Both the position numbers and the translations under genes were made by a program. A DNA stretch of 12,225 nt from an uncultured Christensenellaceae bacterium (lineage in GTDB: Bacteria; Bacillota; Clostridia; Christensenellales; UBA3700): the NCBI GenBank assembly GCA_902373595.1, contig CABKMX010000011.1, positions 1 to 12,225 on the forward strand. The letters run 5' to 3'. Position 1 is the stretch's first letter. Every line of letters begins with the position of its first letter. Shown here in pieces: positions 1 to 12,225 of this stretch. The notes under the pieces were generated by a model. It saw only the letters and a list, made by a program, of their open reading frames with translations. It was not told where the DNA came from and searched no databases.

Positions 1-1941
1 CTCGCGGCGAAGCATCTTGGTCAGCTTGATCGCCGTCTGTCCGCCGAACGCGACGACGACGCCGTACGGCTTCTCGGTGTTGAGAATGCTGAGCACGTCC
101 TCGTCCGTCAACGGCTCGAAGTACAGCCTGTCGGCGGTGTCGAAGTCGGTGGAGACGGTCTCGGGGTTGTTGTTGACGATGACCACCTCAAAGCCCTTGC
201 GCTTGAGCGCCCAGACGCAGTGGACGGACGCATAGTCGAACTCGATGCCCTGTCCTATGCGGATGGGGCCGGAGCCGAAGACGACGACCTTCTTCTTGTC
301 GGAGGGGTGTTCTTTGAGGAACTCCTCCGCCTCGTTCTCGTCGTCGTAGGTGGAATAGAAGTACGGCGTCTCCGCCTTGAATTCCGCCGCGCAGGTGTCG
401 ACCATCTTATAGGAAGCATAGCGCTTGTGCGCGATCTTCTTGCCGCTTATCTTCTCGATGGACTTGTCGAGATAGCCCATCTTCTTCGCCTCGAGGTAGA
501 GCTCGTCGGTGAGCGGCTCCGCCTTGAGACGGCGCTGCATCTCGACCAGCTTGTTCAGCTTGCTCAAGAACCATCTGTCTATCTTGGTGACGTTGTAGAT
601 CTCGTCGACCGTGACGCCGCGCTTGAGCGACTCGAAGATGACGAAGATGCGCTCGTCGTCGACGTCGTGCAGTTTCTCGGCAAGCTGCGCGTCGCCGTAG
701 GCGGCGAACTTGTCGCTGTCGAGAGTGTTGTGCGAGATCTCCGCCCCTCTGACCGCCTTCATGATCGCCTGTTCGAACGTCGTGCCGATTGCCATGACCT
801 CGCCGGTCGCCTTCATCTGCGTGCCCAGCTTGCGGCTGGCGTAGAAGAACTTGTCGAACGGCCACTTGGGGAACTTGACGACGACATAGTCGATGGACGG
901 CTCAAAGCATGCGTAGGTGTTGCCCGTGACCGCGTTCTTGATCTCGTCGAGGGTGTAGCCTATCGCGATCTTGGTCGCGACCTTCGCGATCGGATAGCCG
1001 GTCGCCTTGGACGCGAGCGCGGAAGATCGCGACACGCGGGGGTTGACCTCGATGACCGCATATTCGAAGCTGTCCGGTTTGAGCGCGAACTGGCAATTGC
1101 AGCCGCCCTCGACTTTGAGAGCCTCGATGATGTTGAGCGCCGCGGTGCGCAGCATTTGATACTCTTTGTCCGCGAGAGTGACCGCAGGGGCGATGACGAT
1201 GCTGTCGCCGGTATGAACGCCGACGGGGTCGAAGTTCTCCATGCTGCAGATGGTGATGACGTTGCCCTTGCTGTCGCGCATCACCTCGAACTCGATCTCT
1301 TTCCAGCCGCTGATGCACTTCTCGACCAAAATCTGGTGGATCGGAGAGCTGCGCAGACCGTTCTCGGCGATCTCGAGGAAGTCTTCCTCTGTGTCGGCGA
1401 TGCCTCCGCCGGTGCCGCCGAGAGTGAACGCCGGACGTACGATGACGGGATACCCTATCTCCCGCGCGACCTCGATAGCGGAATCGAGATCGTTGACGAC
1501 CTTGGACGGGATGACCGGCTCGCCGATCGCGGCGAGAGTGTCCTTGAACATCTGTCTGTCTTCCGCCTTGTCGATGGTGTCGGGATCGGCGCCGAGCAGC
1601 TTGACGCCCATCTTGTCGAGGAAGCCCTCTTTGGCGAGCTGCATGGACAGCGTAAGTCCCATTTGTCCGCCCATCGTCGACATAAGGCTGTCGGGGCGTT
1701 CTTTTTCGATGATTCTCTTGACCGTGGTCAGCGTGAGCGGCTCGATGTAGATCCTGTCGGCGACCGCGTTGTCCGTCATGATCGTCGCCGGGTTGGAGTT
1801 GACCAAGACGACCTCAAGCCCGTCCTCTTTGAGCGCGCGGCAAGCCTGCGTGCCCGCATAGTCAAACTCTGCTGCCTGTCCGATCACGATGGGACCGGAA
1901 CCTATGACCATTACTTTGTGAATATCCTTGTTGAGCGGCAT
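1..1941 (-). CDS. carB: Carbamoyl-phosphate synthase large subunit, partial (3' end outside window)
   Basis: CarB uses bicarbonate, two ATP and ammonia channelled from CarA to make carbamoyl phosphate for pyrimidine and arginine synthesis. The gene reads from 1941 down to the left edge with no stop, giving 647 codons of a protein that is usually about 1,060-1,075 residues. The N-terminus carries [20 protein letters not shown] (residues 14-33) and [10 protein letters not shown]. The first ATP-grasp domain shows [11 protein letters not shown] (about 170-180) and [14 protein letters not shown] (about 298-311). The second, repeated half begins near residue 547 with [21 protein letters not shown]. 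The second ATP-grasp domain and the MGS-like allosteric domain, which would show UMP or IMP control, lie outside. The ATG overlaps the carA stop by one base (TAATG), and GGAGG at 1952-1956 lies inside carA, so the two are probably translationally coupled. No frameshift is seen. Confidence 0.97.
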
Positions 1942-3011
1942 TATCTCTTACCCTCCATAGCGGCAATGAATTTGTCGAACATAAACCTCGTGTCGAGCGG
2001 ACCTCCGCACGCCTCGGGGTGGAACTGTACGGTGAAGTTGCCTCCCTCGTACTCGACGCCCTCGCAGGTGCCGTCGTTGACGTTGTAAAAAGACACCTTC
2101 GCGCCCTTGGGCACCGTGTCGCTGTCAAGCGCGTAGCCGTGGTTTTGGCTGGTGATGTACACCCTGCCCGTCTCCACGTCCTTGACCGGCTGATTCTCGC
2201 CGCGGTGGCCGTATTTGAGTTTGAACGACTTCATCCCGTTGGCGAGCGCGAGCAATTGATGCCCGAGGCAAATGCCGAACATCGGGATGCCGCTCTTTTG
2301 CAGCTTGACAAGCTGCTCGATCTCGAACTTGTTATCGGCGGGGTCGCCGGGGCCGTTGGACAGCATTATGCCGTCCGGCTTGCCTTCGAGGATCTTCTCG
2401 GCGGACGTATCGTGCGGCACGACGGTGACGTCGCAGCCTCTCGCCGCGAGCTCGCGCGCGATGTTGCGCTTGGCGCCGTAATCGATCATCGTGACCTTGA
2501 AGCGCGGCTTGCCCTGCTTGACGTGATAGGGCTCCTTGCAGCTGACGTTCGCGACCGCGTCGATCTGGCGATATGCCTTGATGCGCTCCATCAATTCCGC
2601 GGTCGGCTCGCCCTCGACGATCGCGCCGTTCATGACGCCGTACTCGCGCACGATGCGGGTCAGCTTGCGCGTGTCCACTCCGCATATACCGGGAACTCCG
2701 TACTCCTTGAGCATATCGTCCAGCTTGCCCTGGCTGCGGAAGTTGGACGGCGTATCGCACAGGTCGCGCACCACATATCCGCTCAAATGCGGACGGTCGC
2801 TTTCGAAGTCCTCTTTCATCACGCCGTAATCGCCGATGAGGGGAAAGGTCTGTACGACGATCTGTCCGAAAAAGCTGGGGTCGGTCAGCGTCTCGACATA
2901 GCCCGACATACCGGTCGTGAACACGACCTCGCCGATCGTCTCTTTTTCCGCTCCGATCGCAACCCCGTGGAACTTTTCGCCGTTTTCGAGAATAAGACAA
3001 ATTTTTTTCAT
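1941..3011 (-). CDS. carA: Carbamoyl-phosphate synthase small (glutaminase) subunit
   Basis: CarA hydrolyses glutamine and passes ammonia to CarB. The protein is 356 residues from the chosen ATG, close to the usual 350-380. The N-terminal CarA-specific domain spans about residues 1-165. The class I amidotransferase domain follows from about residue 170 ([19 protein letters not shown]). It has the SNGPGDP loop, nucleophile Cys248 in [14 protein letters not shown], and the His331/Glu333 dyad in QFHPEA. A longer frame opens at 3053, but the 14 extra residues are not CarA-like, no ribosome site precedes them, and that start would lie in the leader hairpin. The ATG at 3011 is preceded by GAGAGAGG and matches the family start [11 protein letters not shown]. 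It is the first gene of a carA-carB operon, diverging from purF. No transposed pyr genes or obvious PyrR-type attenuator are visible upstream. Confidence 0.97.
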
Positions 3012-3043
3012 AAAACCTCTCTCGCGTAAGCCCGCGACCGCGC

Positions 3044-3055
3044 ATATGCGCATAT
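3044..3055. repeat. 12-base perfect palindrome in carA leader
   Basis: ATATGCGCATAT is a perfect palindrome, overlapping a second one, CGCATATGCG (3041-3050). Both fall inside the short predicted carA leader. On the transcript the palindrome is flanked by CGCGC and GCGCG, so a roughly 9-bp hairpin with a bulge is possible. It could be an operator or an mRNA structure, or simply chance; no known operator is recognised. Confidence 0.35.
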
Positions 3056-3077
3056 CGTGCGCGCGTTCCGCTTTCTA

Positions 3078-3106
3078 ATTATAATACCATACGCACCGCG
3101 TCGCAA
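3078..3106 (-). promoter_or_regulatory. Sigma-A-type promoter of carA-carB
   Basis: On the minus strand a -35 of TTGCGA (3106-3101) is followed after exactly 17 bases by a perfect -10, TATAAT (3083-3078). Transcription should start near 3071, giving a leader of about 60 nucleotides before the carA ATG. The sequence 3077-3085 is nearly symmetrical and also reads TATAAT on the plus strand (3080-3085), but no good plus-strand -35 was found for it. Confidence 0.75.
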
Positions 3107-3273
3107 GCAAGAATTTGGGGCACATTTTCATCATTTTTTGACACCGGAAGCGCTTCACCGCGATATGTTTTTTCAACAACGCCGTTTGAGCGAAAACACC
3201 ACGTTTCACACCGTCTTTCGGCTTCATTTATTTTTGCCGAACTCCGTTTCGAGACGCTTTTTCGCCCCATTTG

Positions 3274-3298
3274 TCCGCCACTTTTCGCCCATGGCGGA
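3274..3298. repeat. 7-bp inverted repeat upstream of purF
   Basis: TCCGCCA and TGGCGGA are separated by 11 bases, centred about 65 bases upstream of the purF -35. The symmetry is perfect and the position suits a repressor site, but it matches no operator I recognise. The rest of 3107-3347 is T-rich non-coding sequence in which I see nothing firm. Confidence 0.3.
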
Positions 3299-3347
3299 AC
3301 GTGTCGAAAAAAATTGTTTTTCGCGCGCTCAAACCCGTGCAAAACAA

Positions 3348-3376
3348 ATGACATCGACGCCTCTTTGTGCTATAAT
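3348..3376 (+). promoter_or_regulatory. Sigma-A-type promoter of purF
   Basis: ATGACA (3348-3353, five of six to TTGACA), 17 bases, then a perfect TATAAT (3371-3376) preceded by TGC, an extended -10. The predicted start near 3383 leaves only about 22 nucleotides before the purF ATG, so there is no room for a leader riboswitch. Confidence 0.8.
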
Positions 3377-3392
3377 GACTGTATTCTTTTTT

Positions 3393-3398
3393 CGGAGG
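3393..3398 (+). promoter_or_regulatory. Ribosome binding site deciding the purF start
   Basis: CGGAGG ends six bases before the ATG at 3405. A second in-frame ATG at 3399 directly abuts the site and so cannot be used. The open frame continues upstream to 3057 but begins before the promoter, so that extension is not translated. Confidence 0.8.
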
Positions 3399-3404
3399 AT
3401 GACT

Positions 3405-4805
3405 ATGTCTTGCATCAAAGAAGAATGCGGCGTCTTCGGCGTCTACAACAAGGCGGGCATCAAACAGCTCGGCAACCTCGTCTATTTCGGTCTGTTCGCA
3501 TTGCAGCACCGCGGTCAGGAAGCGGCGGGCATCGCGATCAACGTGGGCGGTGACGTCGAACTCAAAAAAGATCTCGGCTTGCTCAGCGACGTGTTCAACA
3601 ACTCGCCGATGATCACCAAGGACGGCGACATCGCGGTCGGCCACGTCAGATATTCGACGACGGGCAGCAACACCGTCGAGAACGCTCAACCTCTCAACGC
3701 GAGATACTACAAGGGCTCTTTGACGATCGCCCACAACGGCAACATCTGCAACGCTCCCGAGCTTCGCAAAAATCTTTCCGAACAGGGCGCGATCTTCCAC
3801 TCCACCAACGACAGCGAGGTCATCGCATACCTCATCGCGAAAGCGCGCATCCACACCGGTTCCATCGAAGAGGCGGTCAAAGAGGTCGTACCTATGCTGA
3901 CCGGCTCTTTCTCACTGCTCATCATGAGCCCGCGCAAATTGATTGCGGTCCGCGACCCCCACGGCATTCGTCCGCTGTGCATGGGCAGGATAGGCAAGAC
4001 GGTCGTCTTTGCCAGCGAATCCTGCGCACTCGACGCGGTCGGCGCCGACTTCGAGCGCGACATCAAGCCGGGCGAGATACGCGTCGTCACCCCCGACGAC
4101 GAGTTCTCGATCGAAGACTACTGCGGTCAGACCCCCGCGCTGTGCATCTTCGAGCACGTCTACTTCGCCCGTCCCGACAGCGAGATCGACGGCCAGTCCG
4201 TCAACGGCGCGCGCGTCAACGCGGGCAAACTGCTCGCCAAACAGCACCCCGTCGACGCGGACGTCGTCATCGGCGTGCCGGACAGCGGTCTTGCCGGCGC
4301 GATCGGCTATTCGATCGAGAGCGGCATCCCCTACGGCGTCGGACTCATCAAGAACAGATACATCGGCAGGACGTTCATCCAGCCGTCGCAGGCTATGCGC
4401 GAACGCAGCGTCGCACTCAAGCTCAACGTGCTCAAAGCCAACGTCGAGGGCAAGCGCGTCGTGATGATCGACGACTCCATCGTCCGCGGCACTACGACCG
4501 CCAACATCATCAAGATGCTCAAACACGCCGGCGCGACCGAGGTGCACGTCCGCATCGCCAGCCCCAAGTTCCTCTACCCCTGCTTCTTCGGCACAGACAT
4601 CCCCGATCAGGATCAGCTCGCCGCGGTCAAGTACACTCACGAGGAGTTGACGCGCAAGATCGGCGCCGACTCGCTCGGCTTCCTCGACCTCGACAGCGTC
4701 GACCAAATGGCTCCCGACAGCAAGCTGTCCTTCTGCAAGGCGTGCTTCACCGGCAACTATCCCTGCCCCGTGCCGTGCAAGGTCAACAAACTCGAATTTG
4801 AATGA
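3405..4805 (+). CDS. purF: Amidophosphoribosyltransferase (glutamine PRPP amidotransferase), Fe-S type
   Basis: PurF catalyses the first committed step of purine synthesis: PRPP plus glutamine to 5-phosphoribosylamine. The 466-residue product is normal length. It resembles the Bacillus-type enzyme: a short propeptide (MSCIKEE) precedes the N-terminal nucleophile Cys8 (CGVFGV), which must be exposed by cleavage. The class II glutaminase domain (about 8-235) has RYSTTGS (82-88), HNGNICN (110-116) and the NDSEV segment. The phosphoribosyltransferase domain has the PRPP loop VVMIDDSIVRGTT (352-364). Cys247 (CIFEHVYF), Cys393 (YPCFFGTD) and Cys444/Cys447 (FCKACFTG) match the four 4Fe-4S ligands of the Bacillus enzyme, implying an oxygen-sensitive protein. 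Other purine genes are absent nearby. It has its own promoter and terminator, and so is probably monocistronic. Confidence 0.97.
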   Translation: MSCIKEECGVFGVYNKAGIKQLGNLVYFGLFALQHRGQEAAGIAINVGGDVELKKDLGLLSDVFNNSPMITKDGDIAVGHVRYSTTGSNTVENAQPLNARYYKGSLTIAHNGNICNAPELRKNLSEQGAIFHSTNDSEVIAYLIAKARIHTGSIEEAVKEVVPMLTGSFSLLIMSPRKLIAVRDPHGIRPLCMGRIGKTVVFASESCALDAVGADFERDIKPGEIRVVTPDDEFSIEDYCGQTPALCIFEHVYFARPDSEIDGQSVNGARVNAGKLLAKQHPVDADVVIGVPDSGLAGAIGYSIESGIPYGVGLIKNRYIGRTFIQPSQAMRERSVALKLNVLKANVEGKRVVMIDDSIVRGTTTANIIKMLKHAGATEVHVRIASPKFLYPCFFGTDIPDQDQLAAVKYTHEELTRKIGADSLGFLDLDSVDQMAPDSKLSFCKACFTGNYPCPVPCKVNKLEFE

Positions 4806-4833
4806 GACGCTCTCCGGGCGGCGAGGGCGCGAC

Positions 4834-4867
4834 GTACGCGGCTGCAAATGCGGCCGCGTACTCTTTT
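4834..4867 (+). terminator. Rho-independent terminator after purF
   Basis: A perfect 9-bp GC-rich stem (GTACGCGGC at 4834-4842 with GCCGCGTAC at 4853-4861), a 10-base loop, then TCTTTT. It begins 29 bases after the purF stop. Confidence 0.75.
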
Positions 4868-4925
4868 CGGCAATACTTTCCTCCGACTCCGATTTTCGTT
4901 CCGCCGCCCCGCTGCGGCGAACGGC

Positions 4926-4957
4926 AAAGGGGGCGTCCGCAACGCGCGGACGCCCCC
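4926..4957 (-). terminator. Probable terminator of the glnN-alaS transcript
   Basis: A perfect 12-bp stem (4929-4940 with 4946-4957, arm GGGGGCGTCCGC) around a 5-base loop, lying 48 bases past the alaS stop. Read on the minus strand it is followed only by TTT, so the U-tract is weak, but the stem is very strong. A second, bulged hairpin (4897-4923) lies just beyond it. Confidence 0.6.
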
Positions 4958-5005
4958 GAATCGTTCAACGATGCCGGACGCCGTACCGTGACGACGTCCT
5001 TTCCG

Positions 5006-6799
5006 TCACTCCGTCTTTGCTTCGAGGACCGCTTTGATCCTTCTCACTCCCGCGGAAGAGGACTGCTCCTTTACGATCCTGAATTTGCCGAGCAACCCCG
5101 TGTGTTCGGCGTGCGGTCCGCCGCATATCTCCTTGTCGACGTCGCCGATCGTATAGACCTTGACGATCTCGCCGTAGCGGCTGCCGAACACGCCGACGGC
5201 GTTTTGACGGCGCGCCTCTTCGACGGTCATCTCCTCGCAGGTCACGGGAAGATCGCGTCTGATCGCGTCGTTGACGCCGTCTTCGACAGCCTTCTTTTCC
5301 TCTTCGGTCAACGGTCTTTCAAAGTTGAAGTCAAAGCGCAGCCTCTCGGGCGTGATGTTGCTGCCCTTTTGCTGTATGTCGTCCCTGCCGAGCACCTTTT
5401 TGAGCGTCGCGAGCAAAATGTGCGTCGCGGTGTGCAGATAGGTGGTCATCTCCGAGCTGTCGGCAAGTCCGCCCTTGAACTTTTGCTCCGCGCCGGCGTG
5501 CGACTTTTGCTGATGCTCTTCGAACGCCTTTTTGTAGCCGTTCATATCGACGCCGTAGCCCTTCTCCTTGCAGATCTCGACGGTCATCTCAATCGGGAAG
5601 CCGTAGGTGTCGTAAAGTCTGAACGCCGTCTTGCCGTTGAGCGTGTTGCCTTGGACATATTTGAGCACCTTTTCGATCTCTTTGAGCCCGTTTTCGAGCG
5701 TCTTGGAGAAGCGCTCTTCCTCTTTGGCGAGCTCTTCGACGACCCTGCCCGAATTGACGCCGAGTTCGGGATAGACCTTCTTGTATTGTTCGATATAGAT
5801 CTTTGCGATGTCGACAAGGCGCGCGGGATCGCAGCCGATCTGACGGGCGAACCTGACAGCCCTGCGAATGAGCCTTCTCAACACATAGCCCTGATCGACA
5901 TTGCTCGGCACGACGCCGCGCTCGTCTCCAATCATAAATGTTGCGGTGCGGATGTGATCGGCAATGATGCGGATCGCCCTGGTCGTCTCCTCGTCTTCGC
6001 CGTACTTCTTGCCCGACAGCTCGCAGATCTTGGCGATCGCGCCGGCGAACAGGTCTGTCTCGTACGCGCTGGAAAGCCCGTTGATCATGCAGACCGTGCG
6101 CTCCAAGCCCATGCCGGTGTCGACGTTCTTTTGTTTGAGCGGCTCGAACTTGCCGTCCGCGGTGCGGTTGAACTCCATGAACACGTTGTTCCAGATTTCC
6201 ACCCACTTGCCGCAGTCGTCGGCGGGCGAACAGTCGGGGCCGCACGGCTCCTTGCCGGTGTCGATGAAGATCTCGGTGTCGCTGCCGCAGGGACCGGTGG
6301 GACCGGCATACCACCAATTGTTAGCCTTGGGCAGATAGAAGATGCGCTCTTTGGGGATGCCGTGCTTTTCCCACACGCTCGCGGCGAAGGTGTCGCGCGG
6401 ACAGTCCTCGTCGCCGGCGAACACGGTGACTGCGATCTTTTCGACGGGGATCTCGAGCACCTTGGTCAAGAACTCGAAGCTGAACCCGATCGACTCCTCT
6501 TTGAAGTAGTCTCCAAGCGACCAATTGCCGAGCATCTCGAAGAACGTGAGGTGGGTCGCGTCGCCGACCTCGTCGATATCGCCGGTGCGCACGCACTTCT
6601 GCACGTCGCAAAGGCGCTTGCCTGCCGGGTGCTTCTGTCCCAAAAGATAGGGCACGAGCGGGTGCATGCCCGCGGTCGTAAACAGCACCGACGGGTCGTT
6701 TTCCGGAATGAGCGAAGCGGACGGAATGATCTTGTGTCCCTTGCTCTCGAAGAATTTCAAATAGCTCTCGCGGAGCTCATCCGAAGTCATCTTTTTCAT
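5006..6799 (-). CDS. alaS: Alanyl-tRNA synthetase, short form lacking the C-terminal domain
   Basis: AlaRS charges tRNA-Ala and clears mischarged Ser or Gly. The 597-residue protein keeps the class II catalytic core: motif 1 region around FTTAGMHPLVPYLLG (40-54), motif 2 region RTGDIDEVGDATHLTFFEML (71-90), and motif 3 GMGLER (229-234). The tRNA-recognition helices and the editing domain follow, with zinc ligands His456 and His460 (HTATH) and Cys559 and His563 (CGGPH). It stops about 30 residues later. Standard enzymes run to about 870-880 residues with a coiled coil and the C-Ala (DHHA1) domain, both missing here. The remaining 200 bases before purF contain no frame for them, so this is a true short form, not a frameshift. 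AGAGG precedes the ATG by five bases. It lies 19 bases downstream of glnN with no terminator between, so it is probably co-transcribed. Confidence 0.95.
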   Translation of the reverse strand: MKKMTSDELRESYLKFFESKGHKIIPSASLIPENDPSVLFTTAGMHPLVPYLLGQKHPAGKRLCDVQKCVRTGDIDEVGDATHLTFFEMLGNWSLGDYFKEESIGFSFEFLTKVLEIPVEKIAVTVFAGDEDCPRDTFAASVWEKHGIPKERIFYLPKANNWWYAGPTGPCGSDTEIFIDTGKEPCGPDCSPADDCGKWVEIWNNVFMEFNRTADGKFEPLKQKNVDTGMGLERTVCMINGLSSAYETDLFAGAIAKICELSGKKYGEDEETTRAIRIIADHIRTATFMIGDERGVVPSNVDQGYVLRRLIRRAVRFARQIGCDPARLVDIAKIYIEQYKKVYPELGVNSGRVVEELAKEEERFSKTLENGLKEIEKVLKYVQGNTLNGKTAFRLYDTYGFPIEMTVEICKEKGYGVDMNGYKKAFEEHQQKSHAGAEQKFKGGLADSSEMTTYLHTATHILLATLKKVLGRDDIQQKGSNITPERLRFDFNFERPLTEEEKKAVEDGVNDAIRRDLPVTCEEMTVEEARRQNAVGVFGSRYGEIVKVYTIGDVDKEICGGPHAEHTGLLGKFRIVKEQSSSAGVRRIKAVLEAKTE

Positions 6800-6818
6800 A
6801 TTTGCCTCTGATTAAATC

Positions 6819-8939
6819 TTATTCGTAGAAAAGTATGTCCGCATAGGTCGGGAACGGCCACACGTCCTTGGGACAGATCGTCTCCAGCTTGTCCGCCGTC
6901 GCGCGCAGCTTTGCCATCGCCGGCAGCACGCGGTCGCGGAAGAGGATCGCCTGCTTGCGCGGGTCCGCCGCCGAAAGCGCGCCTTCCTTTGCGGAATTCA
7001 ACTTGACGATGTCCTCGTCCAACTCGTCGACGAGCACGCTCACTTCGCCGAGCATCTTGCGCGGAGTCGCCGCGAACTTGGGATCGATGTCGCCCAATTC
7101 GTCGACCTGCTTCGCAAGTTTGTACTGCCATTTGAGTACGGCGGGCAGGATCTGTCTGCGCGCCATCATCAACGCCGTCTCCGCCTCGATGTTGGCGGAC
7201 TTGACGTAATTGTCGATGTAGATCGCGCGGCGGCTCTCCATCTCCTTGATGGACAGGATGCCGTGCTTTTGGAACGCTTCCATATTCTTTTTGGCGTTGA
7301 GCGCCTCGTAGGCGTCGACCGCATTGTCCGCGCTGTCAAGCCCGCGCTTTTTCGCCTCTTTGAGCCATTCGCGGCTGTAATTGTTGCCGTTGAAGATGAT
7401 GCGCGAATGCTTTTGATACATCTCCTTGACGATCGCCAAAATCTCTTTGTCGAGCTGAGACTTGGGCGTTTTCTCCAGCCTGTCCGAAATGCGGGAGAGC
7501 ATCTCCGCGGTCATAATGTTCATCACCATCGTCGGCGTGGACAGCGTCGCGGACGAGCCGACCATACGGAACTCGAACTTGTTGCCGGTAAACGCGAACG
7601 GCGACGTGCGGTTGCGGTCGGAAGTGTCGCGCTTGGGCCTCGCGACGTAATTTACGCCCATATTGATGTATTGCTTGGTCGCGCTGGCAATGGTGTGCCC
7701 CTCTACGATGTCTTCCAAAAGATTCTTCATATCTTCGCCGATAAACACCGAAATGATGGACGGCGGCGCCTCGTGTCCGCCCAAGCGGCAGTCGTTGCCG
7801 AGGCTGGAACAGCTCATGCGCAGCAAGTCGTAATACTCGTCCACGCCCGCGATGACCGCAAGGAAGAAGAGCAAAAACACCTTGTTTTCGGCGGGATTGC
7901 TGCCCGGTTTGAGCAGATTGAGCCCGGTGTCCGTGCCGAGCGAATAGTTGGCGTGTTTGCCGCTGCCGTTGATGCCGGCGAACGGCTTTTCGTGCAAGAG
8001 GCACGCAAGCCCGTGATTGTCCGCGACCTTTTTCATCGTCTCCATGATCAATTGATTTTGATCGGTCGCGATGTTCGCCTGGCAGAAGATCGGCGCAAGC
8101 TCGTGCTGAGCGGGCGCGACCTCGTTGTGCTTGGTCTTGGCGGGGATGCCGAGCTTCCACAACTCCTCGTTGAGATCCGCCATAAAGCTCGCGACCCTGT
8201 CGCGGATGGTCGCGTAATATTGATCGTTCTTTTCCTGCCCCTTGGGCGGCATCGCGCCGAACAGCGTGCGCCCGGTGAACTCGAGGTCGTAACGCTTGTC
8301 ATAGTCGCTCTTGTCGACGAGGAAGTACTCCTGCTCTCCGCCGACGTTGGCGATGACTTTGCGCGCGTCCACGCCCAAGATGTTGAGCAGCCTCACGCCC
8401 TGACGGCTGACCGCGTCCATGGATTTGAGCAACGGCGTCTTTTTGTCGAGCGCCTCGCCCGTATAGGAACAGAACGCCGTCGGGATGCACAGCACCGCCG
8501 AGCCGTCTTTGGACTTCTTGATGAACGCCGGAGAAGAGCAGTCCCACGCGGTGTAACCGCGCGCCTCGAACGTCGCCCTTATGCCGCCGGAAGGAAAGCT
8601 GGACGCGTCCGCCTCGCCCTTGCGCAGATTGCTGCCGGTAAATTCGAGCGCGATCTTGCCCTGCTTGTCGACCGAGATGAAGCTGTCGTGCTTCTCGGCG
8701 GTCGTGCCCGTCAAGGGCTGGAACCAATGCGTATAGTGTGTCGCGCCCAACTCTATGCTCCACTCCTTCATCGCCTCGGCGACCTTGTTGGCAAGCTCCT
8801 TTTCGAGCACCTTGTCGCGGTCGATGACCTCGCGCAGCTCGTTGTAGGCGTCCTCGGTGAGATACTTTTTCATCACCTTGTCGTTGAAGACATAGCAGCC
8901 GTAAAAGTCTGTGATCTTTTTGGTCTCGGTAATGCGCAT
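6819..8939 (-). CDS. glnN: Glutamine synthetase type III
   Basis: GSIII makes glutamine from glutamate, ammonium and ATP. The 706-residue length fits GSIII (about 700-730) and rules out GSI or GSII (about 350-470). Recognised segments are THYTHWFQPLTG (67-78), SFPSGGIRATFEARGYTAWD (114-133), GEQEYF (201-206, metal-binding glutamates), KHNEVAPAQHE (270-280), NGSGKH (324-329), and RNRTSPFAFTG plus KFEFRMVGSS (442-463) for substrate binding. The C-terminal helical extension is GSIII-specific. The ATG at 8939 has GAGGAG five bases upstream. It is the first gene of a glnN-alaS unit and diverges from the ammonium transporter, which supplies its substrate. The symbol glnN is used for GSIII; some genomes name it glnA3. 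Confidence 0.96.
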   Translation of the reverse strand: MRITETKKITDFYGCYVFNDKVMKKYLTEDAYNELREVIDRDKVLEKELANKVAEAMKEWSIELGATHYTHWFQPLTGTTAEKHDSFISVDKQGKIALEFTGSNLRKGEADASSFPSGGIRATFEARGYTAWDCSSPAFIKKSKDGSAVLCIPTAFCSYTGEALDKKTPLLKSMDAVSRQGVRLLNILGVDARKVIANVGGEQEYFLVDKSDYDKRYDLEFTGRTLFGAMPPKGQEKNDQYYATIRDRVASFMADLNEELWKLGIPAKTKHNEVAPAQHELAPIFCQANIATDQNQLIMETMKKVADNHGLACLLHEKPFAGINGSGKHANYSLGTDTGLNLLKPGSNPAENKVFLLFFLAVIAGVDEYYDLLRMSCSSLGNDCRLGGHEAPPSIISVFIGEDMKNLLEDIVEGHTIASATKQYINMGVNYVARPKRDTSDRNRTSPFAFTGNKFEFRMVGSSATLSTPTMVMNIMTAEMLSRISDRLEKTPKSQLDKEILAIVKEMYQKHSRIIFNGNNYSREWLKEAKKRGLDSADNAVDAYEALNAKKNMEAFQKHGILSIKEMESRRAIYIDNYVKSANIEAETALMMARRQILPAVLKWQYKLAKQVDELGDIDPKFAATPRKMLGEVSVLVDELDEDIVKLNSAKEGALSAADPRKQAILFRDRVLPAMAKLRATADKLETICPKDVWPFPTYADILFYE

Positions 8940-8977
8940 ATATTCTCCTCGCTCCCCCGACGGGGAACCTTTACATA

Positions 8978-9006
8978 ATTATATACAAGCGTTAATAAAA
9001 TGGCAA
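8978..9006 (-). promoter_or_regulatory. Sigma-A-type promoter of glnN-alaS
   Basis: On the minus strand TTGCCA (9006-9001), a 17-base spacer, and a perfect TATAAT (8983-8978). Transcription would begin near 8971. The roughly 31-base leader contains a small CCCC/GGGG hairpin (within 8955-8966) just upstream of the ribosome site. Confidence 0.8.
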
Positions 9007-9128
9007 ACATATTGTAATATATTTTAGCGGTCCGGCAAAATTTTTTGTCTATACTTCGTTTTTGACAACCGTTAGTGCTAAATTGCGGTTTTCGAAAAAA
9101 ATTTTTCTCAAAATCGTCGTTCAATCGT

Positions 9129-9157
9129 TTGACAATCGCTTTTGCGAGGACTATACT
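9129..9157 (+). promoter_or_regulatory. Sigma-A-type promoter of amt
   Basis: A perfect TTGACA (9129-9134), 17 bases, then TATACT (9152-9157). The predicted start near 9164 gives a leader of about 94 nucleotides. A very similar sequence with TTGACAA (9062-9068) lies 67 bases upstream but has no -10. I see no clear GlnR/TnrA-type box between the two divergent promoters. Confidence 0.8.
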
Positions 9158-9171
9158 CATTGCATAGACAT

Positions 9172-9202
9172 AGGCGTCGGGCAGCGGCGCCTTATATTTT
9201 TT
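9172..9202 (+). terminator. First terminator-like hairpin in the amt leader
   Basis: AGGCGTCG (9172-9179) pairs with CGGCGCCT (9185-9192), one G-U pair, 5-base loop, followed by a TTATATTTTTT tract to 9202. It begins about eight nucleotides after the predicted transcription start and no gene precedes it on this strand, so it can only act on the amt transcript itself. Confidence 0.6.
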
Positions 9203-9211
9203 CGGATCACA

Positions 9212-9246
9212 ACGGAGTGTCCTTTGCGGCGCTCCGTAATTTTTTT
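9212..9246 (+). terminator. Second terminator-like hairpin, directly ahead of the amt ribosome site
   Basis: ACGGAGTGTC (9212-9221) pairs with GGCGCTCCGT (9228-9237) with two G-U pairs and a 6-base loop, followed by AA and seven Ts (9240-9246). The amt ribosome site GGAGG (9247-9251) follows immediately. This is the form of a transcription attenuator. Confidence 0.7.
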
Positions 9247-9257
9247 GGAGGTGTGTT

Positions 9258-11066
9258 ATGGCAACGACATTTTTGGCGGCGGCACTGCCCGACGTCTACG
9301 CAAACCTGACCGAAGGCGATTTTGTCTGGGTGCTTGTCGGCATCTGCCTCGTCTTCTTTATGCAGGCGGGCTTCGCGATGGTCGAAACGGGCTTCACCCG
9401 CGCAAAAAACGCAGGCAACATCATCATGAAAAACCTGCTCGACTTCTGCCTCGGTACGGTCGCGTTTCTCATCCTCGGCTACGGATTGATGCACGGCGGC
9501 GATCTGGGCGGAGTCATCGGCGATCCGAGCGGACTCGGCGCGATCTACTCGTCGTTCACGGACGGAGATATGCTCAAAGTTATGTTCCACCTCGTCTTCT
9601 GCGCAACGGCGGCGACCATCGTCTCCGGCGCGATGGCGGAACGTACGAACTTTTTGTCATATTGCGTGTACAGTTTTGTGATCTCGCTGATCGTCTACCC
9701 AATTTCCGGCCACTGGATATGGGGCGGCGGCTGGCTCTCCGACCTCGGCTTCCACGACTTCGCCGGATCTACGGCGGTCCACCTGGTCGGCGGCACCGCG
9801 GCACTCGTCGGCGCCGCGATCCTCGGTCCCCGCATCGGCAAATACGTCCCCAAACTCGGCGTCTATGACAAAAAAGGGCGTCCCGTCCTCGAAAGCAAGG
9901 CGATCCCGGGGCATTCGCTTACGTTGGGCGCGCTGGGCGTATTCATCCTCTGGTTCGGGTGGTACGGATTCAACGGCTCTTCCGCCTACGCGGTCAACGA
10001 ATCGGTCGCGCGGGTGTTCATAACGACTACGGTGGCGCCGTCCGTTTCCACGATCACGGCAATGGCGATCACATGGATCAAATACGGCAAACCCGACATC
10101 TCGATGACGCTCAACGGATCTCTTGCCGGACTTGTCGCGGTCACCGCCGGATGCGACGTCGTTTCGGTGCCCGGCGCCGCGATCATCGGCGTCATCGCCG
10201 GTTTCGTAGTCGTCTACGGCATCGAATTCATAGACAAAAAACTTCATATCGACGACCCTGTCGGCGCGATCGGCGTCCATATGCTCTGCGGCGCGACAGG
10301 AACGCTGCTCGTCGGGATCTTCGATATGAACAAGGGCGTCGTCAGCGGTTTTATCTACAACGACGCATTGACTGCGGGCGAAGCGTTCTCCTACTTCGGA
10401 GTGCAGATTCTCGGCGTCGTCGCAGTCATCGCCTGGGTCGGCATCACGATGTCCGTGCTGTTCTCGGTAATGAAAAAGTATAAATTCCTTCGTGCCCGCA
10501 AAGAAGACGAGCTCGCAGGCCTCGACGCTTCCGAACACGGACTTGCCAGCTCCTATGCCGACTTTATGCCGGTACCCTCGGTGATGCTTGCCGACAATAT
10601 GTACACCGAACAGACCGCCTCTCCCGTGGCTTCCGAAACAACTCCCGCCGGCAACGTTCCCGTCGAAAAGTCCGTCCCCGTCACCGTGACTTCGGCGCTC
10701 GGCGAACATAAATTCACCAAGATCTCGATCGTCACCCGTCCCGACAAGTTCGAAGCGCTCAAAGCAGCTATGGATGCGATCGGTATCACGGGCATGACCG
10801 TCTCGCAAGTCAAGGGGTGCGGCACTCAGCGCGGTTCCGCCCAATACTACCGCGGTTCCAAGATCGACATCAAGCTCCTGCCCAAGATCAAACTCGAAAC
10901 AGTCGTCACCAAGATCCCCGTCGAAACGGTCGTCGACGCCGCCAAAAAGGCGCTTTACACCGGCAACTACGGCGACGGCAAGATCTTCATCTACGACGTA
11001 GTCAACGTCATCCGTATCCGCACCGGAGAAGAGGGCTATTCCGCATTGCAGGACGAAGACGAGTGA
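9258..11066 (+). CDS. amt: Ammonium transporter with fused C-terminal PII regulator
   Basis: The first ~412 residues form an Amt/MEP/Rh ammonium channel with eleven expected membrane segments. The conserved DFAGSTAVH segment contains Asp167 and the first pore histidine His175. The second is His341 (GAIGVHMLCG), and Phe110/Phe114 lie in the expected gate region. The conserved cytoplasmic tail motif AGLDASEHGLASSY (about 420-433) follows. Then comes a ~49-residue Pro/Thr/Ser-rich linker and a full PII (GlnB/GlnK) domain (about 483-602). That domain has Gln524, the T-loop with Tyr531 (QYYRG, equivalent to the uridylylated Tyr51), the B-loop TGNYGDGKIF (568-577) and RIRTGEEGYSAL (586-597). So the usually separate GlnK plug is covalently tethered to its channel. 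GGAGG lies six bases before the ATG. The gene diverges from glnN. Confidence 0.96.
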   Translation: MATTFLAAALPDVYANLTEGDFVWVLVGICLVFFMQAGFAMVETGFTRAKNAGNIIMKNLLDFCLGTVAFLILGYGLMHGGDLGGVIGDPSGLGAIYSSFTDGDMLKVMFHLVFCATAATIVSGAMAERTNFLSYCVYSFVISLIVYPISGHWIWGGGWLSDLGFHDFAGSTAVHLVGGTAALVGAAILGPRIGKYVPKLGVYDKKGRPVLESKAIPGHSLTLGALGVFILWFGWYGFNGSSAYAVNESVARVFITTTVAPSVSTITAMAITWIKYGKPDISMTLNGSLAGLVAVTAGCDVVSVPGAAIIGVIAGFVVVYGIEFIDKKLHIDDPVGAIGVHMLCGATGTLLVGIFDMNKGVVSGFIYNDALTAGEAFSYFGVQILGVVAVIAWVGITMSVLFSVMKKYKFLRARKEDELAGLDASEHGLASSYADFMPVPSVMLADNMYTEQTASPVASETTPAGNVPVEKSVPVTVTSALGEHKFTKISIVTRPDKFEALKAAMDAIGITGMTVSQVKGCGTQRGSAQYYRGSKIDIKLLPKIKLETVVTKIPVETVVDAAKKALYTGNYGDGKIFIYDVVNVIRIRTGEEGYSALQDEDE

Positions 11067-11085
11067 CCCTTTCCGCGTAAAATAC

Positions 11086-11118
11086 AACGGGCTCTTTCCG
11101 CAAGGAAAGGGCCCGTTT
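11086..11118 (+). terminator. Rho-independent terminator after amt
   Basis: Stem of about 13-14 bp with one G-U pair (11086-11099 with 11104-11117) capped by a GCAA tetraloop, 20 bases after the stop codon. The following T-tract is short (TTT, then CGCTCTC). Confidence 0.75.
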
Positions 11119-11127
11119 CGCTCTCGG

Positions 11128-11237
11128 TGAATTATACTTTCAAGTGCAACACTTTAACAAAGAAAAGAGTTCATACAAAAACTGCTGTATAATGTAGTTA
11201 GCTCTAAATAAAAAACAGCACTTAACTTGACAATTCA
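11128..11237. mobile_element. AT-rich MITE-like element or IS remnant
   Basis: The 110-base segment begins TGAATT-N8-AAGTGC (11128-11147) and ends with the inverted equivalent (11218-11237). The two 20-base ends agree at 14 positions with identical spacing. It is strongly AT-rich between GC-rich flanks and has no coding capacity. Internally it has a TATAAT (11188-11193) without a -35, and TGCTGT/ACAGCA as an internal inverted pair. From memory the left end resembles IS30-family termini, but I cannot verify this. Flanks share CTCTC (11121-11125 and 11238-11242), though the left copy is two bases off the end, so a target duplication is uncertain. The GC-rich sequence that follows (11238-11405) shows nothing I can name. 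Confidence 0.45.
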
Positions 11238-11405
11238 CTCTCTCTTTTCCCTCATTCGTATCGCCGCCCGAAGCCGTACCCGGCGCGCCTCCTCTCCGAC
11301 CGAATTTTGGTCATACCGCGCCGGTCAAGTCCGCCGTTCCGCCAACTCGTCGACCGCCGCAAAACGCCGATCGACGCCACTTTTTGCAAAAACATCTCCA
11401 AAATG

Positions 11406-11434
11406 TTTGCATTTTTCTGAATTTGTGATAGAAT
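11406..11434 (+). promoter_or_regulatory. Promoter of tRNA-Leu
   Basis: TTTGCA (11406-11411), 17 bases, TAGAAT (11429-11434) preceded by TGA, an extended -10. The start would fall a few bases before the tRNA 5' end at 11449. Confidence 0.6.
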
Positions 11435-11448
11435 AGTATCACTGTCAT

Positions 11449-11535
11449 GCGGACATGGCGGAATTGGCAGACGCGTAAGATTCAGGTTCTTATGGTCGAA
11501 AGGCTGTGCAGGTTCAAGTCCTGTTGTCCGCACCA
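11449..11535 (+). tRNA. tRNA-Leu, anticodon CAG, with encoded CCA
   Basis: Acceptor arms GCGGACA (11449-11455) and TGTCCGC (11525-11531) pair perfectly, followed by A and encoded CCA (11533-11535). The D-arm has GCG/CGC with TTGG in the loop. The anticodon arm is TAAGA-TTCAGGT-TCTTA with anticodon CAG at 11483-11485, reading CUG. A long variable arm (GGTCGAAAGGCT region) marks a class II tRNA, as expected for leucine. The T-arm is GCAGG-TTCAAGT-CCTGT. All consensus positions look intact. Its last 21 bases are repeated exactly at 11860-11880. Confidence 0.95.
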
Positions 11536-11557
11536 CCGACGGAAGACTCGCCTTTTC

Positions 11558-11601
11558 AGCGAAAAATATGAGGCTGTTTCACGGCCTCATATTTTTTCGC
11601 T
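11558..11601 (+). terminator. Strong terminator after tRNA-Leu
   Basis: A 17-bp stem (11558-11574 with 11584-11601, one bulged T) around a 9-base loop. The A-rich 5' side and T-rich 3' side (ATTTTTT) make it terminate in both directions. It lies 22 bases after the tRNA. Confidence 0.8.
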
Positions 11602-11624
11602 ATTTCGGCTCGCTTCCTCCCCCG

Positions 11625-11637
11625 GCGGACAACAGGA
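11625..11637 (-). repeat. Inverted 13-base copy of the tRNA-Leu 3' end
   Basis: GCGGACAACAGGA is the exact reverse complement of TCCTGTTGTCCGC in the tRNA (11519-11531) and in the downstream copy (11864-11876). It could pair with either over 13 bp, which would compete with tRNA folding in any read-through transcript, or close a ~250-base structure with the downstream copy. Confidence 0.7.
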
Positions 11638-11652
11638 TCGTCCGAAATTGTG

Positions 11653-11743
11653 ACGCTCACGTGCCTCGATATATCCATATCTCGGCATTCCCTAACGGCG
11701 TTCGCTATTCCGTCCTCGCTTCGCTCGTCCTTACAAGTCCTGT
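11653..11743 (+). repeat. Hairpin repeat unit A
   Basis: It begins ACGCTCACG, forms a hairpin GTGCC-TC-GATAT-(loop)-ATATC-TC-GGCAT (11661-11688), continues through CGGCGTTCGCT (11696-11706), and ends with CAAGTCCTGT (11734-11743), ten bases identical to the tRNA T-arm region. The last part sits in its own small hairpin, TTACA-AGTCC-TGTAA. Unit B has the same order. Confidence 0.6.
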
Positions 11744-11768
11744 AAAATCGGATATGCTAATCTTAGTT

Positions 11769-11795
11769 TGCACGACGACTGCGTCGTCTTGTGCA
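11769..11795. repeat. Strong hairpin between repeat units A and B
   Basis: TGCAC-GACGAC pairs with GTCGTC-GTGCA with a 3-base loop and a TT bulge. There is no following T-tract, so it is not a terminator. It probably belongs to the same structured element as the flanking units. Confidence 0.55.
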
Positions 11796-11799
11796 GTGC

Positions 11800-11880
11800 A
11801 CGCTCACGCGTCTCGACACTTCTGTGTCTCGCCGTCCCCTATCGGCGTTCGCTGTAAGGCAAGTCCTGTTGTCCGCACCA
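11800..11880 (+). repeat. Hairpin repeat unit B, ending in the tRNA-Leu 3' copy
   Basis: It repeats the order of unit A: ACGCTCACG, hairpin GCGTC-TC-GACAC-(loop)-GTGTC-TC-GCCGT (11808-11835), CGGCGTTCGCT (11843-11853), then the tRNA tail. The loop-proximal stem differs from unit A at two base pairs and both changes keep pairing (T-A to C-G). A third compensated pair lies in the outer stem, which also has one mismatch. Confidence 0.6.
11860..11880 (+). repeat. Exact 21-base direct repeat of the tRNA-Leu 3' end (possible att site)
   Basis: The last 21 bases of the tRNA gene including CCA (11515-11535) recur exactly here, while flanking bases differ on both sides. Tyrosine integrases commonly use a tRNA 3' end as attB and leave such direct repeats. 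The segment between the copies is 345 bases per repeat period, too small for an autonomous element, and no integrase gene is in view. Confidence 0.65.
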
Positions 11881-11890
11881 AGTCAATTAA

Positions 11891-11937
11891 ATCCGAACCA
11901 AATACTTGTAACAAGTGATTGGTTCGGATCTATTTTT
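11891..11937. terminator. Strong terminator 10 bases after the second tRNA-tail copy
   Basis: ATCCGAACCAA (11891-11901) pairs perfectly with TTGGTTCGGAT (11919-11929), enclosing a further ACTTG/CAAGT stem, then CTATTTTT. Its distance from the tRNA-tail copy is what one expects of a tRNA gene and its own terminator. It could also work on the minus strand (TTTAATT). Confidence 0.75.
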
Positions 11938-11960
11938 AGTTTGTGATATAAATAGCAAGT

Positions 11961-11989
11961 TTGACTTATAAGAAAAAATCTGCTATAAT
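11961..11989 (+). promoter_or_regulatory. Promoter of the right-edge gene
   Basis: TTGACT (11961-11966), 17 bases, perfect TATAAT (11984-11989) with an extended -10 TGC. It stands in sequence of about 20% GC. Confidence 0.8.
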
Positions 11990-12023
11990 AATTTAATCAT
12001 CAGTAAGGAGTTTTACATAAGAC

Positions 12024-12225
12024 ATGGATGGATGGCTCATTGCATTTATGGTAATAATGCTACTTTTATGTGTAGCTATACCTGTTGCGGTATGCTACTA
12101 TACTTATAAGAAAAAAGAAGAGATAAAGGCACAAATTAAAGGTTTGGCAGATAATACTTTGGAAATGACGCCAGAAGAGTTTTTTGTTATGAGAAGAACA
12201 AGTTTCGGCGGTCGTGGTCGTCCTT
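12024..12225 (+). CDS. Small AT-rich membrane-anchored protein, partial (3' end outside window)
   Basis: An open frame of 67 codons runs from the ATG at 12024 to the window edge. Residues 1-3 are followed by one hydrophobic segment (about 4-25, WLIAFMVIMLLLCVAIPVAV), then YYTYKKKEEIK, so the N-terminus is probably outside and the rest cytoplasmic. The visible soluble part includes ALDNTLEM-like sequence (actual LADNTLEMTPEEFFVMRR) and ends TSFGGRGRP. AAGGAG (12005-12010) lies 13 bases upstream of the ATG, a long spacing with no better start. Codons such as ATA and AGA and the low GC differ from all upstream genes, suggesting recent acquisition. From memory the end resembles the lead-in to a GIY-YIG nuclease domain in some membrane-anchored Bacillota proteins, but that domain is not visible, so no function is assigned. 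Confidence 0.6.
   Translation, partial: MDGWLIAFMVIMLLLCVAIPVAVCYYTYKKKEEIKAQIKGLADNTLEMTPEEFFVMRRTSFGGRGRP

Follow-up and report, generated by a model that had tools for sequence, protein, structure and literature searches.

Background

In the eut leaders of Enterococcus faecalis, the ANTAR protein EutV acts on RNA hairpins whose marks are a hexaloop with A at position 1 and G at position 4 (A1/G4), a stem of 3 bp or longer and conserved closing pairs; it needs two such hexaloops, with natural linkers of 5-12 nt, linkers of 3 or 14 nt being bad (PMC3369931). We analysed a stretch of 12,225 nucleotides from an uncultured Christensenellaceae bacterium (assembly GCA_902373595.1, contig CABKMX010000011.1, positions 1 to 12,225), which we call the window, and in it the leader of amt, the gene of an ammonium transporter. 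Like the eut leaders (Ramesh 2012, PMC3369931), this leader combines A1/G4 hexaloops, terminators sharing bases with the hairpins and a nitrogen gene. In the eut leaders only the second hexaloop of a pair overlaps the terminator, whereas here each hexaloop has a terminator of its own; moreover, unlike in the EutV targets, the hexaloop in such leaders often lies roughly where the transcript starts.

Ammonium transporters were already among the ANTAR targets predicted in 2012, and several attenuators per unit are known, one species having 13 distributed over six units (PMC3369931); in actinobacteria a linker of 2-25 nt is allowed (PMC8164766). According to Walshe 2022 (PMC8934654), the binding unit of the ANTAR dimer is one hexaloop, as proposed here, and lone hexaloops were not expected to act while the polymerase is moving; the lone hexaloops described here overlap terminators. 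The leaders controlled by NasR (nasF) and NasT (nasA) are known for the kind of control that we propose, antitermination of nitrogen-assimilation genes by an ANTAR protein, with the differences that nasF has a two-hairpin motif and that the signals of NasR and NasT are nitrate and nitrite. NasR binds a single hairpin weakly, at about 12 uM, and selected RNAs have a C:G closing pair (PMC7496416). Of two hairpins mutated in the nasA leader only one is reported to have mattered (PMC5424462), a result compatible with one-hairpin action. We found no description of lone-hexaloop attenuators in the main texts of the open-licence PMC papers searched. The requirement for two hexaloops underlies the two ANTAR covariance searches of PMC3369931 and PMC8164766, and lone sites would therefore be missed by these searches.

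Results and discussion

Two hexaloops, two terminators

We propose, with a probability of roughly 0.8, that the amt leader consists of two attenuators in series, each of which would be the single-hexaloop target of a predicted ANTAR antiterminator protein. The direct basis of this proposal is made of the sequences, their conservation and covariation, the company of ANTAR and nitrogen genes, and the lack of enrichment of a canonical partner hexaloop. The elements of the locus are the following:

9129..9157, + strand: amt promoter, sigma70-type, TTGACA-17-TATACT (TTGACA at 9129, TATACT ending at 9157)
9167..9178, + strand: predicted antiterminator hexaloop 1, GAC-AUAGGC-GUC, with A1 and G4 and a C-G closing pair
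9172..9202, + strand: terminator 1 (T1), 8-bp stem 9172-9192 with a 5-nt loop, then a U tract, TATATTTTTT
9208..9219, + strand: predicted antiterminator hexaloop 2, CAC-AACGGA-GUG, with A1 and G4 and a C-G closing pair
9212..9246, + strand: terminator 2 (T2), 10-bp stem 9212-9237 with a 6-nt loop, then a U tract, AATTTTTTT
9247..9251, + strand: ribosome-binding site GGAGG, directly 3' of the U tract of T2
9258..11066, + strand: the controlled gene, an Amt ammonium transporter with a C-terminal P-II domain, 602 aa (Pfam PF00909, E 5.5e-116; PF00543, E 4.4e-25)

The initial annotation of this stretch had described a promoter followed by two consecutive T-tailed hairpins sharing GCGGCGC (9184-9190 and 9226-9232), and had proposed that they attenuate amt. 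Promoter, hairpins and shared motif are present as placed, the promoter being a good one of its type, and attenuation by tandem terminators finds support in the way related leaders conserve these elements and covary (see below). The same annotation had stated that A1/G4 hexaloops were missing and that the factor would be unknown. The hexaloops exist in an alternative fold, in which they overlap the 5' arms of both terminators, and because they are ANTAR hexaloops the second statement was wrong as well.

With a transcription start near 9164, as suggested by the promoter, hexaloop 1 would begin at about +4. Nucleotides 9172-9178 are common to hexaloop 1 and T1, and nucleotides 9212-9219 to hexaloop 2 and T2. 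Both sites thus show what is expected of an ANTAR target, namely an A1/G4 hexaloop, a stem of 3 bp or more, a C-G closing pair and a mutually exclusive overlap with a terminator; the linker between the two hexaloops is 29 nt and not the short one of a dual-hexaloop target. A third A1/G4 hexaloop, GGC-AGCGGC-GCC at 9180-9191, follows hexaloop 1 after 1 nt and is separated from hexaloop 2 by 16 nt; we regarded it as due to chance because it is not seen in the same-genus leaders L001, L002 and L023.

The stretch 9150-9270 folds more stably than expected (z = -3.18, one of 200 shuffles being equally stable). T1 reaches -14.1 kcal/mol versus -2.1 for hexaloop 1, T2 reaches -16.5 versus -1.1 for hexaloop 2, and the two terminators together amount to -30.6 kcal/mol. 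When the folding of a growing transcript is followed, hexaloop 1 forms first and T1 replaces it after the 3' arm of T1 has emerged. Terminators that win by energy over an early hexaloop are the behaviour which, in such a folding model, is expected of an antiterminator stabilised by a protein. The window has no more terminator-like sites (13) than shuffles do (15.3), and therefore it is conservation in relatives, not the scan, which carries the argument.

By default, presumably when nitrogen is replete, the nascent RNA would fold into T1 and then T2, and the polymerase would stop near 9202 or 9246. The ANTAR protein, when active (presumably under nitrogen limitation), would grip hexaloop 1 once it is transcribed; nucleotides 9172-9178, which are the 5' shoulder of T1, would then be occupied and therefore T1 could not form. 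At hexaloop 2 the protein would likewise block T2, and amt with its P-II part would be transcribed. Two such checkpoints would multiply: the leak would equal one read-through times the other, and the leader would respond more steeply to the ANTAR protein. In this scheme we infer the binding of the protein, the direction and the signal of the response, termination itself, the start of transcription and the presence of an ANTAR gene in the source genome.

Conservation and covariation in related leaders

We collected the 300 nt preceding amt at 21 loci from whole-genome relatives and on 80 named contigs, mostly of Clostridia. With the window this makes 102 leaders, among which the 100 relatives with at least 200 nt were counted (L094, with 39 nt, was left out), while L018, L019, L021 and L024-L028, which are fragments or P-II-only matches, were not taken as leaders. 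An A1/G4 hexaloop overlapping a T-tailed terminator is found in 72 of the 100, once in 54 of them and repeatedly in 18. Dinucleotide shuffling (20 rounds) leaves a site in 0-6 leaders per 100, the antisense strand gives 6, and neither control yields any tandem. If the loop letters are left free, 109 of the 167 terminator-overlapping hexaloops are A1/G4, the next class being G1/G4 with 12.

Among the 93 amt sites, 56 pass our length and loop criteria, of which 51 were aligned (alignment A1). In these 51 sites 87.8% of the cells of the terminator stem are paired, with 143 both-side changes versus 50 in shuffles. The hexaloop stem has 78 both-side changes versus 32 in shuffles, three of its five pairs having been selected on; its fourth pair, which was not selected on, is paired in 45 of the 51 sites with 26 both-side changes. 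The C-G pair closing the loop is present in all 51. Hence both of the rival stems, terminator and hexaloop, covary. In the same-genus leaders L001, L002 and L023 the cores of both hexaloops are kept while the spacers have diverged, and both promoter boxes are identical across the three. Hexaloop 2 is conserved in L001 and L002, and L023 has G for A at position 1 of that loop.

Two side observations concern these close relatives. By eye, the bases after hexaloop 1 of L001 can form a separate long hairpin. At L018/L023 (G003:C41), amt is matched only in pieces, residues 6-70 and 465-602, as if its middle had been lost; its leader keeps both hexaloops, the second with G1.

One hexaloop or two

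If the sites belonged to the canonical type, a partner hexaloop would be expected nearby. At a linker of 3-14 nt, the 93 amt sites have 3 A1/G4 partners, against 1 to 9 for partners with different loop letters, and the 57 regulon sites have 1, against 0 to 5, which is not an enrichment in either set; a relaxed scan for 2-bp partners gave 2 matches over 87 sites, one of them in L075. As a positive control, the scan recovers the partner of the clostridial eut site L262, at a linker of 10. This control rests on one site, because among the 11 sites of eut operons (9 regions) only L262 is clearly dual. The EutP/PduV loci, also taken as a positive control, gave 4 sites in 30 loci, none with a partner; one of them, at position 1040 of L140 (match strand), is an AGC-AATGGA-GCT hexaloop with a good terminator and no partner, and looks like a real lone hexaloop with its terminator.

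The position of the promoter gives a second argument. Of the 70 leaders with a site, 31 have a recognisable promoter no more than 60 nt ahead of the first hexaloop. In 27 of the 31 this hexaloop begins 8-15 nt after the -10 box, which corresponds to about +1 to +8 under our assumption of a transcription start 7 nt past that box. Therefore there is no room for a transcribed partner hexaloop in these 27. A promoter within 25 nt precedes 29 of the 70 first hexaloops, versus 8% of random positions. The sites look like single-hexaloop ANTAR attenuators, of which the window has two in series.

The stems appear to come in two kinds with distinct places. Sites with an AGC or GGC stem have a promoter directly before them in 23 of 37 cases and follow the end of glnN in none of the 37; sites with a CAC or TAC stem have a promoter directly before them in 0 of 37 cases and follow the end of glnN in 15 of the 37. 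Two sites are found in 17 of the 69 leaders without glnN upstream, window included, versus 0 of the 32 with glnN upstream; in all these tallies glnN was recognised by a short protein motif. The window fits these slots, with its GAC stem at the promoter and its CAC stem before amt. On the simplest history suggested by these sequences, the tandem may have arisen by the addition of a promoter-plus-hexaloop module before an ancestral intercistronic module.

The company of ANTAR genes and nitrogen genes

Of 59 relatives, 45 carry genes of ANTAR proteins, among them the nearest genome G001; none of 14 control genomes does. Built from the hexaloop-terminator module, the covariance model R1 matches 53 of the 59 genomes at E <= 0.1, among the matches listed. 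In the window it gives 28.8 bits (E 2.9e-6) at T2, a site within the alignment of the model, and 16.1 bits (E 0.014) at T1, a site outside it. We fetched and checked 90 R1 matches among the best listed, leaving out the amt sites already collected, some opposite-strand copies and G023:C27. A full hexaloop is present at 56 of the 71 checked matches in ANTAR-positive genomes and at 2 of the 19 in ANTAR-negative ones. Because the ANTAR-negative matches include weaker ones and both strands of palindromes, the comparison at E <= 1e-3 is fairer: 54 of 67 versus 1 of 6 (p = 0.003). Counted by genome, for the fetched R1 matches only, this makes 32 of 45 versus 2 of 14. The two full hexaloops in ANTAR-negative genomes belong to G042 and G036, and the one in G042 precedes an S-adenosylmethionine decarboxylase gene.

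The genes behind the sites, identified with Pfam and NCBIfam in ten representatives, are those of glutamine synthetases of types III and I (GSIII, GSI), asparagine synthetases A and B (asnA, asnB), CTP synthase (pyrG), a class II amidotransferase, a C26 peptidase, PucR, acetate kinase and an isochorismatase-family hydrolase, which is near biuret amidohydrolase but below the cut-off of that model. The module stands before acetate kinase and a PucR-type regulator at L211 (G052:C92) and L227 (G039:C59), which suggests that the regulon extends past ammonium assimilation. G001 has a gene of type I glutamine synthetase, then the ANTAR gene 2 nt behind it, then the site and pyrG; in G003 and G009, too, an ANTAR domain is encoded behind glutamine synthetase.

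We aligned 18 ANTAR proteins from relatives (203 columns) with EutV as the reference (6wsh). The position of Asp54, phosphorylated in EutV, is Asn in 17 of the 18 and Asp in 1, as in a pseudo-receiver. The position of Tyr164, which in EutV stacks on G4 (PMC8934654), is His in 15 of the 18, and the position of Met172 is Met in 16 and Lys in 2. AmiR of Pseudomonas aeruginosa likewise has a receiver without phosphorylation site (PMC8934654) and a His in place of the G4-stacking Tyr. Since such a receiver is presumably not phosphorylated, the signal, judging from these sequences, is probably a partner or a ligand and not phosphorylation. AmiR is held by AmiC; glutamine synthetase as the signal partner in the relatives is a guess from gene order.

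These observations can be extended to a wider reading, for which we would accept even odds: that in Clostridia and their neighbours a whole nitrogen regulon would be built on lone hexaloops, promoter-proximal or intercistronic, with their own terminators and read by ANTAR proteins with non-phosphorylatable receivers. A single hexaloop would suffice, and amt would be checked twice with fixed roles, an AGC-type stem at the promoter and a CAC-type stem before amt, the ANTAR gene standing behind glutamine synthetase (in the three same-genus genomes examined). If this holds, the pairing of glnA with ANTAR makes glutamine synthetase a candidate sensor, and a single hexaloop is enough for antitermination on a moving polymerase, contrary to the current model. 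If lone hexaloops suffice, clostridial ANTAR regulons are underestimated, and natural leaders offer a test of how far single hexaloops are functional, a question posed in PMC8934654. Ammonium uptake and the synthesis of glutamine would also gain a concrete control mechanism, in a group represented here mostly by metagenome-assembled genomes.

Weighing the explanations

The two hexaloops might form one canonical dual site with a stretched linker, in which hexaloop 1 would be the P1 recruitment hairpin, hexaloop 2 the P2 antitermination hairpin and T1 only a pause or folding element bringing the two together. L001 and L023 keep hexaloop 1 despite the lack of a U tract after it, and EutV does need both hairpins (PMC3369931, PMC8934654). 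We nevertheless consider a single dual site unlikely: the linker is 29 nt in the window and the start-to-start spacing of the hexaloops varies from 41 to 115 nt over 16 tandem leaders, while EutV fails with a 14-nt linker or with 20 nt added; leaders with one hexaloop are the larger class (54, against 18 with more); and T1 of the window, with its good U tract, would terminate before hexaloop 2 exists. A purely RNA-based antiterminator, controlled by a ligand, had been favoured by the initial annotation, the 5' arm of hairpin 1 (9173-9179) pairing with the 3' half of hairpin 2 (9227-9233). This pairing does exist, with 7 bp and -8.5 kcal/mol, and over 16 tandem leaders (L001 and L023 left out) its cross-helix score averages 13.8 versus 12.0 with the 3' arms of other leaders, exceeding its own control mean in 10 of the 16. 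As an antiterminator it is weak and inconsistent: it is clearly strong only in 3 of the 16 (the window, L065 and L099), and in L002, of the same genus, it scores 13 versus 29 for the leader's own terminator. Compared by energy, it is far weaker than T1 and T2 together; it requires the 3' half of T2, which is made after the decision at T1, and it is impossible in single-site leaders. No riboswitch family matches either: with Rfam models at E <= 1 the leader gave only an 18-bit Brucella sRNA match, on the other strand and with a cut-off of 270, ten related loci gave no match at the gathering cut-off, and the earlier remark that there is no glutamine riboswitch agrees with the lack of any curated Rfam match in the leader. 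The best reading of the cross-pairing is a side effect of the GGNG motif being present twice, and control by RNA alone appears very improbable. That both hairpins are constitutive, unregulated terminators limiting read-through would agree with the equal frequency of terminator-like sites in shuffled sequence; it leaves unexplained the mutually exclusive covarying stem, the invariant C-G closing pair, A1/G4 and the link to ANTAR genes, and we find it hardly credible.

Several points weigh against our proposal of two single-hexaloop attenuators, to which the EutV requirement for both hairpins has to be added. The hexaloop stems of the window are weak, with only 3 bp, and therefore the whole proposal depends on a protein, whose gene in the source genome is presumed from its kin. 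T1 is the weaker match to model R1 (16.1 bits) and is hardly a terminator in L001 and L023, where no U tract follows hexaloop 1; in addition, the second loop of L023 carries G at position 1. By the criteria used, 28 of the 100 leaders have no site, and the leader counts are not independent, because they come from related leaders collected by Amt similarity. In L075 a distance of 15 nt separates two hexaloops. In 39 of the 70 leaders with a site no promoter is recognisable; the argument of room therefore does not reach them, and the partner scan alone applies. The R1 matches checked were mostly at stronger E-values in ANTAR-positive than in ANTAR-negative genomes, and some of those in ANTAR-negative genomes amount to a single palindrome matched on both its strands. 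Finally, acetate kinase and PucR are not classical ammonium-assimilation genes.

Other features of the window

The similarity to the fusion of Amt with P-II spans both parts in many relatives. On the other side of the leader lies a divergent gene of type III glutamine synthetase, before which model R1 finds no site. At 5006-6799, on the minus strand, the alanyl-tRNA synthetase is only 597 aa long, with the catalytic and SAD domains and no domain match beyond them. Directly 3' of amt, a hairpin without hexaloop stem at 11081-11125, which starts with ACAACGGG and scores 12.5 bits with model R1, is probably the amt terminator.
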